Shown: positions 1,761 through 4,722 of the stretch, piece after piece | How the letters are laid out: each line of letters begins with the position of its first letter | Numbering within the stretch: position 1 is the stretch's first letter | Source: Clostridiales bacterium | GTDB taxonomy: Bacteria; Bacillota_A; Clostridia; Oscillospirales; Oscillospiraceae | Length of the DNA: 10,761 bases | NCBI GenBank assembly: GCA_019410105.1 | Contig: DXTB01000028.1 | Location: forward strand, 2,977 to 13,737 | Direction: 5' to 3' | Made by a program: the position numbers and the translations under genes | The notes under the pieces: model-generated | The model's database searches: none | The model's input: the letters and a program-made list of their open reading frames with translations, nothing else | Told to the model about the DNA's origin: nothing

Positions 1761-2648
1761 GTGTTTATTTGGGACTTTGTGGCCAATCCGGTGATGGAGT
1801 CCATCCTGGACTGGTTTTACAGCCAGATGGTGGGCTTCCTGGGCGCCTTCTTCGCCCAGATGGGAAACATGGGGGTGGAGCTGTTTGACCTCTCCTGGGT
1901 GCGGTCAGTGGTGCGCTTCTTCTCCCAACTGGGCTGGGCCCTCTTTGCCGTCAGCGTGGTGGTATCTGCCTTTGAGTGCGGCATTGAGTACGCATCTGGC
2001 CGGGGCAATCTCCAGCAGCCCGCCCTCAACGCCCTCAAGGGCTTCTTTGCCGTCAGCCTGTTCACCACTGTGCCCGTTCGGCTGTACGCCCTCTCCGTCT
2101 CCCTCCAGGGTACCTTCGCCATGGAAATCACAGGGGCGGGAAAGAGCATCGGGGAGCTGGGCAATGAAATCCTCACAGGCCTTGAGGGGGCTGGCCTGAC
2201 GGATATCGCGGCCCAGGCCAAATGGGGCCTGGGTACCAACCCCATCATGCTCCTCTTCGCCATGATCTTCATGGCCTATGCGGTAATCAAGGTGTTCTTC
2301 TCAAACTTGAAACGGGGCGGCATCCTGCTCATCCAGATCGCGGTGGGCTCCCTGTACATGTTCTCCATCCCCCGGGGCTATACGGACGGCTTCACCCAGT
2401 GGTGCAAGCAGGTCATTGGCCTGTGTCTCAGCGCCTTCCTCCAGGCCACCATTCTGGTGGCGGGGCTTATGGTGTTCAGCGACAAAGCCCTCCTGGGGCT
2501 TGGCCTCATGCTGGCCGCCGGAGAGGTGCCCCGCATCGCCGGGGCCTTCGGCCTGGACACCACCACCAGAGCCAATATCATGAGCGCCGTCTACACCGCC
2601 CAGGCTGCCGTCAATACCACCCGCACCATTGTCCAGGCGGTAAAATGA
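1761..2648 (+). CDS. VirB6/TrbL-like conjugal transfer membrane protein (CD1112-like)
   Basis: A 295-residue polytopic membrane protein. Hydrophobic segments lie at about 52-72, 94-113, 160-181, 186-204, 217-238 and 242-256, with a possible further one at 22-36. A soluble loop with ITGAGKSIGELGNEIL lies between the third and fourth. This is the usual layout of VirB6/TrbL proteins, which form the membrane channel of type IV secretion systems, and the position after the pilin-like gene fits. The GAGKS in the loop is not part of an ATPase fold. The start is a GTG at 1761 preceded by GAGGCGGTGAAGG, 14 bases after the previous stop. The C-terminal end is soluble (TTTRANIMSAVYTAQ). The stop codon overlaps the next start as ATGA, so the methyltransferase is probably translationally coupled to this gene. 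Confidence 0.8.
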   Translation: MFIWDFVANPVMESILDWFYSQMVGFLGAFFAQMGNMGVELFDLSWVRSVVRFFSQLGWALFAVSVVVSAFECGIEYASGRGNLQQPALNALKGFFAVSLFTTVPVRLYALSVSLQGTFAMEITGAGKSIGELGNEILTGLEGAGLTDIAAQAKWGLGTNPIMLLFAMIFMAYAVIKVFFSNLKRGGILLIQIAVGSLYMFSIPRGYTDGFTQWCKQVIGLCLSAFLQATILVAGLMVFSDKALLGLGLMLAAGEVPRIAGAFGLDTTTRANIMSAVYTAQAAVNTTRTIVQAVK

Positions 2649-3409
2649 CCCTTACCCTCGGAAGCTTGTTTGACGGCATCGGCGGCTTTCCGCTGGCCGC
2701 CATACGGCAGGGGATCACCCCACTGTGGGCCAGCGAGATTGAGCCCTTCCCCATTCAAGTCACGAAACATCATTTCCCGGAGACGCTCCATATGGGGGAT
2801 ATCACCAGGCTGGACGGGGCGAAGCTGCCGCCGGTGGACATTATCTGCGGCGGCTCACCCTGTCAGGACTTATCCGTGGCATCCTGTACCCGCGCCGGAC
2901 TGGCCGGCGCACGGTCCGGGCTGTTCCTGGAGCAGATCCGGGTGACAAAGGAGATGCGGGATGCGGATATACGACGAGGGCGGACAGGCAAGTCTGTTCG
3001 CCCCAGATGGTTCTGCTGGGAGAATGTCCCCGGCGTGTTCAGCAGCGGCTTCCCTAAAGGGGAGGACTTCCGGTTCGTCCTGGAACAGATCGCCGGAATT
3101 GCAGACAATTCCATACCTTTCACTCGACCTCACCCCTGGGGCTGGCAACCTGCTGGGAAATTACGAGTGGGAGCTGCATTCTCCCTGGCGTGGAAGGTCT
3201 TCGACGCTCAATACTGGCCCGGCACCCCCCAGCGGAGACGCAGGGTGTTCCTTGTCGCTGATTTTGCAGGACAATCCGCCCCGAAAATACTATTTGACCA
3301 GGAGAGCCTGCCTGGGCATTCTGCGCAGGGCGAAGGAGCGGGGCAAGCCTCTCCCGCCCCAGCTCCATGCGGCCCTCCTGGTGCAGGCGGGGCTGGCCGC
3401 CTGGGATGA
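2645..3409 (+). CDS. C5-cytosine DNA methyltransferase, N-terminal/catalytic part (motifs I-VIII)
   Basis: This 254-residue frame carries the AdoMet-binding and catalytic half of a C5 methyltransferase. Visible motifs are I (GSLFDGIGGF, 6-15), II (SEIEPF, 30-35), III (GDIT, 51-54), IV (GGSPCQDLS, 69-77, with catalytic Cys73), VI (WENVPG, 125-130) and VIII (TPQRRRRVFLVAD, 194-206). Methylation of cytosine-C5 within a specific site is the expected reaction. No target-recognition domain and no motifs IX or X are in this frame. The last 20 or so residues turn into a low-complexity Ala/Gly/Pro tail before a TGA at 3407. The missing half is in the +1 frame, in the gene starting at 2961, which overlaps this one by 449 bases. 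This resembles split enzymes such as M.AquI (alpha and beta chains). The alternatives are a recent frameshift or +1 ribosomal frameshifting. The ATG at 2645 overlaps the VirB6 stop. Confidence 0.85.
   Translation: MTLTLGSLFDGIGGFPLAAIRQGITPLWASEIEPFPIQVTKHHFPETLHMGDITRLDGAKLPPVDIICGGSPCQDLSVASCTRAGLAGARSGLFLEQIRVTKEMRDADIRRGRTGKSVRPRWFCWENVPGVFSSGFPKGEDFRFVLEQIAGIADNSIPFTRPHPWGWQPAGKLRVGAAFSLAWKVFDAQYWPGTPQRRRRVFLVADFAGQSAPKILFDQESLPGHSAQGEGAGQASPAPAPCGPPGAGGAGRLG
2947..2963 (+). promoter_or_regulatory. Ribosome-binding site and ATG of the second methyltransferase frame
   Basis: AAAGGAG (2947-2953) lies seven bases before the ATG at 2961, inside the first methyltransferase frame. The match and spacing are as good as those of the undisputed genes here. 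It argues that the second frame is translated on its own from this point rather than only as the remnant of a frameshift. In the first frame the same bases encode TKEM. Confidence 0.65.
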
Positions 3410-4175
3410 GTGCGGCCTGGCGGATACCCGGGATATTACAGCCGGGTTTTCCGCCGGGGCGGGGGCCAGCGCGGGCAGTATTGGATACTCGGAGCGTGCG
3501 GCGCCCACCCTGAAGGCCGGCCAGAGCGGCAACCGCATGCCCTCCGTGCTCTGCCTCAACGACCAGGGCGGCAGCGTCATGGACTGCACTGAAGATAAGA
3601 CCGGAACCCTGCGGGCACAACAGCACGGGCATCAGCCCCTGGTTTTTGAGAACCACGGCATTGACAGCCGATACACTGGGCCGCATCCGATCGTGCCCAC
3701 ACTATCCGCCAGGGCTGGTACCGGAGGCAACAACCTGCCTCTGGCCCTCCAGCCGGAGCCGACTATGTGTATCTGCGGCAATGCCATTGACCGGCAGCCC
3801 CGCAATGGCGGCAACGGCATTGGCATCCAAAATGATGTGGCCTATACCCTGACCAGTGCGGACCGGCACGCCATTTTTCGCCGCCAGCGGGTGGACAAAT
3901 TCAGAGAGGACGATACCGCCTCCACCCAGAGTGCCCGTCAGGGGAAGGATGCCACCGATCTGATCTGCCAGCCAAGCCGTGATACACTGGCGGTTTTCCT
4001 GATCCGGCGTCTCACTCCACTGGAGTGTGAGCGGCTTCAGGGGTTCCCGGATGGGTGGACAGACCTGCCCGGCGCCTCGGACTCCGCCCGGTACAAGGCC
4101 TTGGGTAATAGTGTCCCAGTGCCATGCGTGGAGTATATCATGGCGGGCATCGCCCGGGCGGCGGAGGGGGGCTGA
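2961..4175 (+). CDS. C5-cytosine methyltransferase, second chain: overlapping N-terminal domain, target-recognition region, motifs IX-X
   Basis: A 404-residue frame, +1 relative to the first methyltransferase chain. Residues 1-149 lie over that chain's gene, yet carry motifs I recognise from phage and ICE proteins: SLFAPD..AGRMSPA (11-25), YLSLDLTPGAG (52-62), SLSLILQ (97-103), then KYYLTRRACLGILRRAKERGKPLPP (109-133). Residues 150-340 are the likely target-recognition region. It has four TL-centred repeats (APTLKAGQSG, TGTLRAQQHG, VPTLSARAG, YTLTSADRHA). Residues 349-391 hold motif IX (RRLTPLECERLQGFPDGW) and motif X (ALGNSVPVPCVEYI). The catalytic Cys and AdoMet motif I are absent, so this chain cannot methylate alone. 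Presumably it pairs with the 2645 product. The ATG at 2961 has its own AAAGGAG site. If the split is instead damage, the joined enzyme would shift +1 somewhere between about 3250 and 3410. Confidence 0.75.
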   Translation: MRIYDEGGQASLFAPDGSAGRMSPACSAAASLKGRTSGSSWNRSPELQTIPYLSLDLTPGAGNLLGNYEWELHSPWRGRSSTLNTGPAPPSGDAGCSLSLILQDNPPRKYYLTRRACLGILRRAKERGKPLPPQLHAALLVQAGLAAWDECGLADTRDITAGFSAGAGASAGSIGYSERAAPTLKAGQSGNRMPSVLCLNDQGGSVMDCTEDKTGTLRAQQHGHQPLVFENHGIDSRYTGPHPIVPTLSARAGTGGNNLPLALQPEPTMCICGNAIDRQPRNGGNGIGIQNDVAYTLTSADRHAIFRRQRVDKFREDDTASTQSARQGKDATDLICQPSRDTLAVFLIRRLTPLECERLQGFPDGWTDLPGASDSARYKALGNSVPVPCVEYIMAGIARAAEGG

Positions 4176-4284
4176 CATTGTTGCTTATGCTTGCTTTCCG
4201 GCAAAATCTTTGTTGCTGTTGGTGATGGCTATTTACCGCCGGGATCGATATACTTGCGTTACCAAACAGAAGGGGGGCCAATCC
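4176..4284 (+). promoter_or_regulatory. AT-richer spacer with a possible weak promoter
   Basis: This 109-base gap is noticeably more AT-rich than its neighbours. A TATACT box at 4249-4254 resembles a -10 element, but no convincing -35 lies 16-18 bases upstream (TGGCTA at 4226-4231). A promoter for the ribbon-helix-helix gene is possible but weakly supported. Confidence 0.2.
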
Positions 4285-4722
4285 ATGGAAGAAAATGTGA
4301 AGAACCTCTGTGCACCCATCCCCGCCGGGCTTCACGCCCGGGTGCGGGAGGAGCAGGAGGTATCCGGAAAAACACTGGGCCAGTATATGGCCTGGTTGAT
4401 CCAAACATTTTACGACAATCAGAAGGAGGAAACTACGATGAGCGGAGACAAGAGAACGGTGGCATTCCAGGTGCCCGGCGAGCTGTTCGAGCGATTTAAG
4501 GACTACCTGCAGGAGAAGGGCATCAAGCAGAACGCCTTCTTCCTGGACTGCATCCACAGGGCCCTGGCGGAGGCCCAGGAGGAATGTAAGGCTGCAGGGG
4601 ATACCGCCAACGAGGGGCACGTGGAGCAGGAGGGCCGCCTCCCGGAGGAAGCCGTTGCAGAGACCGAGGGGGAAACAGATGGATGTGACGAGGATACGGA
4701 AGAAAGCAGTACAGAAGGATAA
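4285..4722 (+). CDS. Tandem ribbon-helix-helix-like protein with acidic tail
   Basis: A 145-residue protein that appears to contain two ribbon-helix-helix-like units in tandem. Unit one is about 6-44 (KNLCAPIPAGLHARVREEQ then SGKTLGQYMAWLIQTFYD). Unit two is about 56-97 (KRTVAFQVPGELFERFKDYL then GIKQNAFFLDCIHRALAEA). Each has a short strand with alternating residues followed by two helices, as in Arc/MetJ-type DNA-binding proteins and relaxosome accessory factors. The tail from about residue 105 is very acidic. A role as a DNA-binding regulator or transfer accessory protein is inferred from fold and context. The ATG at 4285 has AAGGGGGG upstream. A longer start at 4225 lacks a ribosome site. 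A second in-frame ATG at 4438 (Met52) has an excellent site, so a 94-residue single-unit form may also be made. I recall similar tandem proteins at this place in other Clostridia ICEs, so the fusion is probably old. Confidence 0.7.
   Translation: MEENVKNLCAPIPAGLHARVREEQEVSGKTLGQYMAWLIQTFYDNQKEETTMSGDKRTVAFQVPGELFERFKDYLQEKGIKQNAFFLDCIHRALAEAQEECKAAGDTANEGHVEQEGRLPEEAVAETEGETDGCDEDTEESSTEG
4423..4440 (+). promoter_or_regulatory. Internal in-frame ribosome site and ATG
   Basis: AAGGAGGA (4423-4430) is followed seven bases later by an ATG at 4438. It lies in frame inside the ribbon-helix-helix gene, exactly at the junction between its two units. The match to the anti-Shine-Dalgarno sequence is better than that of the gene's own first start. 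Confidence 0.6.

Follow-up and report, generated by a model that had tools for sequence, protein, structure and literature searches.

Both split C5-cytosine DNA methyltransferases (C5-MTases) and overprinted genes have been described before. As described in PMC3404938, the two-chain C5-MTase M.AquI carries motifs I–VIII in one chain and the distal variable region and motifs IX–X in the other, and M.EcoHK31I is a natural two-polypeptide C5-MTase whose small chain has only motif IX. The out-of-frame HNH open reading frame (ORF) reported for ShiLan in actinobacteriophage methylases is described as an inserted homing endonuclease of disjunct distribution (PMC11855218), and the dmt gene of phage P1, which encodes a single-frame C5-MTase, was non-essential in a CRISPR-interference screen (PMC10695390). 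Here we describe a locus in a 10,761-nucleotide stretch of contig DXTB01000028.1 from a Clostridiales bacterium (hereafter, the window) in which a C5-MTase is split over two overlapping ORFs, α and β, and in which β begins with a domain homologous to an ORF nested in phage C5-MTase genes. Relative to the known systems, what appears to be new is an overprinted gene turned into a domain of a split enzyme.

Both ORFs are present in the window, with β in the +1 frame of α, and the original prediction of a C5-MTase divided between overlapping frames with their own starts agreed with the frames themselves, the AAAGGAG-N7-ATG start of β, a 449-base α/β overlap, and the division of the PF00145 match. 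Residues 5–134 of α correspond to positions 3–117 of the Pfam PF00145 profile and residues 305–397 of β to positions 228–322, and the TIGR00675 match is divided between the chains in the same way. By sequence, the pair belongs to the C5-MTases, with motifs I–X distributed over two chains and the PCQ and WENVPG motifs read in α. The Shine-Dalgarno sequence of β is built from the α Lys-Glu codons of a KEMR segment. The motif division by sequence is that of M.AquI, and in nine sister loci the chains are encoded by separate tandem genes. Unlike the M.AquI arrangement, however, β of the window starts inside α and has an extra N-terminal domain of ~149 residues, apparently derived from an overprinted gene. 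The β gene of M.EcoHK31I lies inside its α gene in another frame. That enzyme shares with the window a two-polypeptide organization but, as it has been described, differs in its small chain, because β of the window contains motif X as well as motif IX. The single-frame C5-MTases of phages, including P1 Dmt and its relatives, belong to the same subfamily and have a nested ORF that is homologous and lies at the corresponding position in the +1 frame, but all of their motifs lie in one frame and the nested ORF stops shortly past its core.

We consider it likely, with a probability of roughly 0.8, that the locus encodes a functional two-chain C5-MTase whose β chain was derived by joining a nested gene to the C-terminal half of the enzyme. 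The α chain would supply the S-adenosylmethionine-binding and catalytic lobe (motifs I–VIII), β, translated from its own Shine-Dalgarno sequence and ATG within α, would supply the recognition region and motifs IX–X, and the chains would assemble post-translationally, as in M.AquI. The ancestor would have been a small gene in the +1 frame of phage C5-MTase genes, encoding a separate protein of about 130–160 amino acids. In a conjugative-element lineage, a change of frame just beyond the nested core could then have placed the C-terminal half of the enzyme behind the start of the nested gene, and the overlap would later have been removed in a sister clade. Judged by homology, the first ~149 residues of β descend from such a small overprinted gene, and the fusion of this domain to the C-terminal half, together with its retention there, suggests a role in binding or regulating the methyltransferase. 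The original prediction of a functional two-chain enzyme on a conjugative element is supported with respect to two separately started chains, with β inside α, but missed the nature of β residues 1–149. These do not result merely from the overlap; they form a domain whose homologue is an overprinted gene in single-frame phage methyltransferases, P1 dmt included.

Parts of β residues 1–143 matched phage and phage-plasmid records in which the methyltransferase occupies one frame. The match in Ruminococcus phage NatCom_3870, like that in a Citrobacter phage-plasmid, was in the +1 frame within an intact methyltransferase gene; P1 dmt has a homologous nested +1 ORF of 162 amino acids (2486–2974 of locus L087), and P7, SJ46, and others also matched the nested protein. 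The Citrobacter nested protein was matched by 142 of 50,697 phage records at E 1e-4 (60 listed). Because finding a nested ORF in relatives that were themselves fetched by β similarity proves little, we used as an independent test a set of 160 viral-collection loci fetched solely by the methyltransferase segment upstream of the nested ORF (two subfamilies, the best 80 of a larger set in each, with some contigs recurring from an earlier scan). All 148 loci with room for the nested domain, defined as at least 700 bases, contained it, in the +1 frame in 145, the +2 frame in two, and the upstream segment's own frame in one; in 134 of the 148, the methyltransferase was single-frame, and one ORF ran through to its C-terminus. 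The 12 loci with less than 700 bases contained the domain in seven cases and not in five. As a control, we took 30 C5-MTase loci identified solely by a PF00145 match; 29 were without the nested domain, and the one locus that had it carried an α N-terminal segment of the phage subfamily (E 8.7e-38). Among 299 genomes of the phylum, all 20 listed matches to the nested profile (15 genomes) were on a methyltransferase, 19 in the +1 frame and one, a weak match (L409), in the methyltransferase frame itself. The nested ORF differs from the ShiLan HNH ORF, as that insertion is described, in overlapping the enzyme's own ENV-to-motif-VIII region and in being present at every locus with room. In Schatzie and in Mycobacterium phage Thibault, a gene for an HNH endonuclease splits the methylase; the Schatzie record notes unresolved intron boundaries, and Thibault gp104, annotated as a hypothetical protein, covers the nested-domain match. 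Two other viral loci (L010 at 3476–4228 and L049 at 3659–4456) are split at a different point, because their methyltransferase N-terminal matches are in the frame of the nested core whereas the remainder of the enzyme is not.

Several results indicate that the nested frame is coding. First, we read 82 de-duplicated single-frame loci from a fixed start 15 bases past the upstream methyltransferase segment through the core; the +1 frame was open in 78 (42/45 and 36/37 by subfamily), compared with 5.7 expected from synonymous shuffles. For the part before motif VIII alone, 78 were again open compared with 11.8 expected, and the +2 frame was open over the full stretch in none of these 82 phage loci. 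An earlier count of 82/82 was true by construction, as the stretch had been bounded by the nested ORF, but its shuffled expectations (5.65 and 12.0) are unaffected. Second, nested readings scored at least 63.7 bits against the nested profile, whereas the maximum in 410 shuffles was 43.8. Third, column identities change across motif VIII. Up to this motif, amino-acid identity was 0.60 in the methyltransferase frame versus 0.36 in the nested frame; past it, identity was 0.60 in the nested frame versus 0.30 in both the methyltransferase frame and the third frame, and nested codon positions 1, 2, and 3 had identities of 0.63, 0.70, and 0.42, the third being the fastest. Selection thus passes from the methyltransferase frame to the nested frame beyond motif VIII. 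In the control region upstream, the methyltransferase frame had the signature expected of coding sequence (0.72/0.82/0.37 and 0.74/0.83/0.39). Between there and motif VIII, its third positions were more conserved (0.48 and 0.66) than in this control, and the N-terminal part of the nested ORF therefore looks constrained as well. The same codon pattern was seen in 49 loci chosen by the nested motif, and purifying selection was found in both frames across the shared DNA, as for an overprinted pair. Finally, 41 of 45 Firmicutes-type loci offer an ATG that is accompanied by a Shine-Dalgarno match.

Taken with the relatives described below, these sequence comparisons make it probable that the genes of a large C5-MTase family in phages and mobile elements, P1 dmt included, hide a conserved +1 gene that runs from the ENV motif to beyond motif VIII, that its product is a real protein working with the methyltransferase, and that this protein became the N-terminal domain of β in gut conjugative elements and was freed from overlap in one clade. 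If so, many annotations as DNA methyltransferase conceal a second protein, and, if the nested gene is expressed in P1, a much-used laboratory phage has an unannotated gene within dmt. Of 68 nested proteins, 30 matched the profile phrog_16143 (best E 2e-10), which is named only as a DNA methyltransferase, and some methyltransferase families may thus partly derive from the hidden frame. In the literature that we searched, we found no report of the nested gene.

Matches to β at E 0.001 occurred in 114 of 400 Oscillospiraceae genomes, some through the C-terminus only. In a search that scored 8,000 candidates, many of the best 120 listed homologues spanned 98–100% of β, residues 1–149 included, at 46–100% identity, indicating that the β frame is more than chance. 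An alignment of 17 chosen homologues showed strong conservation of the N-terminal segment (LDLTPGxGNLLGxxYWE, LNTG, SLSxIL, and KYYLSxxACLGILRRAxERGKxLP). We compared layouts in 58 loci, consisting of 52 regions hand-picked from the listed β matches, five viral loci, and the window. The C-terminal half was in the nested frame in 38 loci, 13 had a single-frame enzyme plus a nested +1 ORF that ends separately, and in seven the regions compared did not include the C-terminus. Of the 38 fused loci, 29 were overlapped, the window included, and nine were not overprinted. Among the overlapped loci, L305 and L327 were so counted although the regions compared contained no intact α, and L294 and L317, two of 11 loci listed under the non-overprinted pattern, were reassigned after their frames were read. 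The two-frame layout, which the original prediction proposed to check in homologous elements, is shared by 28 of 57 relatives chosen by β similarity.

The nine non-overprinted loci are informative about β. In each, an α frame through motif VIII precedes β; α stops just past this motif and β starts at or near the junction, with a stop/start overlap of 1–4 bases in six loci, a 2-base gap in one, and longer overlaps, of 31 and 44 bases, in the remaining two (the β start of L306 and two GTG starts are our choices from a start-site listing). This sister clade encodes in tandem the same two chains as the window, in keeping with the predicted two-chain enzyme. The segment that mirrors ENVPGAFSS in overlapped forms is gone from the clade, and the LDLxxGHxDLxGxxYWxxRS..LNTGxAPR segment is kept. 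Identities at codon positions 1, 2, and 3 of the N-terminal part of β were 0.77, 0.79, and 0.46 in these nine loci, compared with 0.75, 0.63, and 0.63 in 28 overlapped fused loci and 0.75, 0.52, and 0.66 in 13 single-frame loci (three partial loci were dropped, and five without a C-terminus were placed in no group). The N-terminal domain therefore has a coding signature where no methyltransferase frame lies beneath it, and β is most probably a chain with a start of its own. The existence of this clade makes the constraints of the two frames separable; if our reading is true, it offers a natural comparison of an overprinted gene before and after its release from the overlap. In a 68-row tree (48 layout loci and 20 viral loci, with loci lacking a C-terminus labelled by nested-frame length), the three layouts required 5 changes compared with a shuffled mean of 27.8, and the non-overprinted form was one clade of eight rows with support of 100/99; many deeper branches were weak.

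Both chains appear to be maintained, as ratios of nonsynonymous to synonymous substitution rates (dN/dS) were well below 1. In overlapped fused loci (22 of 27 usable), the median was 0.088 for the motif I–IV region of α (114 pairs, maximum 0.459) and 0.236 for the last 140 codons of β (101 pairs, maximum 0.669); pairs including the window gave 0.10–0.30 for α and 0.13–0.48 for β. In the start-site listing, where the start with the best Shine-Dalgarno match was taken, which favors finding one, the β start codon had such a match in 31 of 31 other overlapped loci, and AAGGAG-N7-ATG was present in 22 of 32 with the window included. The inheritance of the layout across Oscillospiraceae elements and the purifying selection on both chains support the original view that the β start inside α is a real feature.

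How the two frames are expressed can be pictured in other ways. Programmed +1 ribosomal frameshifting, raised in the original prediction, would fuse α to β as one enzyme and make the internal ATG secondary, and the +1 relation of the frames and the α stop just past motif VIII are as expected from such a mechanism. Across the 29 overlapped fused loci, however, the α stop is scattered between 88 bases short of the core end and 92 bases beyond it, a spread that gives no sign of a fixed shift point, although no search for slippery motifs was made. In addition, β has its own start with a Shine-Dalgarno sequence, seven of the nine non-overprinted junctions are short stop/start junctions after which β retains the nested domain, and the nested ORF ends separately in single-frame relatives. 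We thus regard frameshifting as very unlikely. Alternatively, β might work without α, perhaps as a regulator, or as a DNA-binding protein equipped with a captured recognition region, as might be suggested by loci in which β is open and α interrupted and by the separate nested ORF of phages. Strong purifying selection on α in overlapped loci, the invariable presence of the α frame before β in the non-overprinted form, and the retention of motifs IX–X in β of the window make this idea unlikely.

Other explanations deny that the arrangement has a function. If α and β were remnants of a decaying methyltransferase gene, open by chance or because of recent divergence, then interruption of α in some loci and an altered PCQ loop in α of the window would be natural consequences; dN/dS well below 1 for both halves in many pairs, inheritance of the layout on the tree, β starts with Shine-Dalgarno sequences, and a re-organized, non-overprinted clade that remains open and constrained render decay quite improbable. 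Two related alternatives in the original prediction were rejected for the family: a sequencing error, given that the layout is inherited among relatives, and a pseudogene, given purifying selection on both halves. Conservation of the nested frame could also be a mere by-product of conserved methyltransferase motifs, with the phage nested ORF making no protein. The methyltransferase frame is indeed the better conserved up to motif VIII, and SLSxILE is the +1 reading of that motif. Past motif VIII, however, the methyltransferase frame is conserved no better than the unused third frame and the nested frame has the fastest third positions, synonymous shuffles fail to give the observed open frames or profile scores, and the non-overprinted clade retains the domain with no methyltransferase frame beneath. 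Codon-position data refute a by-product for the nested core, and we consider this explanation extremely unlikely overall.

Some observations nevertheless weigh against a functional two-chain enzyme with a β chain of nested-gene origin. The choice of the 58 loci by β similarity biases the fused share upward. Single-frame relatives with motifs I–X in one frame, which the original prediction had named as contrary evidence, do exist and reach 69% identity in α. The nested +1 ORF is present in them as well, and two chains in the lineage of the window are not refuted by such relatives. In Flavonifractor sp. An10 (L001/L327), α is broken by an inserted stretch and β is still open. In four of the 82 phage loci, a stop in the nested frame lies after the expected start and ahead of the core, and P1-type loci have an ATG in 37 of 37 cases but a recognizable Shine-Dalgarno sequence in only 13 of 37. 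In α of the window, the loop after PCQ (2852–2910) has the sequence VASCTRAGL, which exceeds the usual VAGxRxGL by one residue, and an AlphaFold model of β alone was poor (pLDDT 34.6). A loop resembling that of the window, VASGTRAGL, follows PCQ in L276. The Flavonifractor insert is ~3.4 kb and, by eye, its ORF reads like a tyrosine recombinase.

Features of the window locus are collected below. The α ATG overlaps the trbL stop codon (ATGA), and the α stop codon is the TGA at 3407–3409. The alpha/beta pair is followed by a gene for a VirB4-type ATPase, and this gene order places it on a conjugative element. A TrbL C-terminus is found in 37 of 57 relatives, or 38 of 58 loci with the window, several regions being too short to tell.

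Positions of the methyltransferase pair and its upstream neighbor in the window
Feature	Positions	Strand	Description
trbL (TrbL_5)	1761..2648	+	gene 5' of α
α chain	2645..3409	+	254 aa; C5-MTase motifs I–VIII: GSPCQ, WENVPG, TPQRRRRVFLVA
Shine-Dalgarno AAAGGAG of β	2947..2953	+	seven bases 5' of ATG 2961
β chain	2961..4175	+	404 aa in the +1 frame; carries the nested-gene domain, the recognition region, and motifs IX–X
Overprinted segment (β N-terminal domain, residues 1–149)	2961..3407	+	homologous to ORF nested in phage C5-MTases
Nested-domain profile match	3168..3386	+	profile match; core KYYLTRRACLGILRRAKERGKPLPPQLHAAL, core motif at 3288
PF00145 match in β	3873..4151	+	Pfam; motif IX RRLTPLECERLQGFP, motif X YKALGNSVPVPC

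Upstream of the transfer genes, positions 2–1336 of the window encode a surface protein with SpaA prealbumin-like repeats and a PLPRTGY end.

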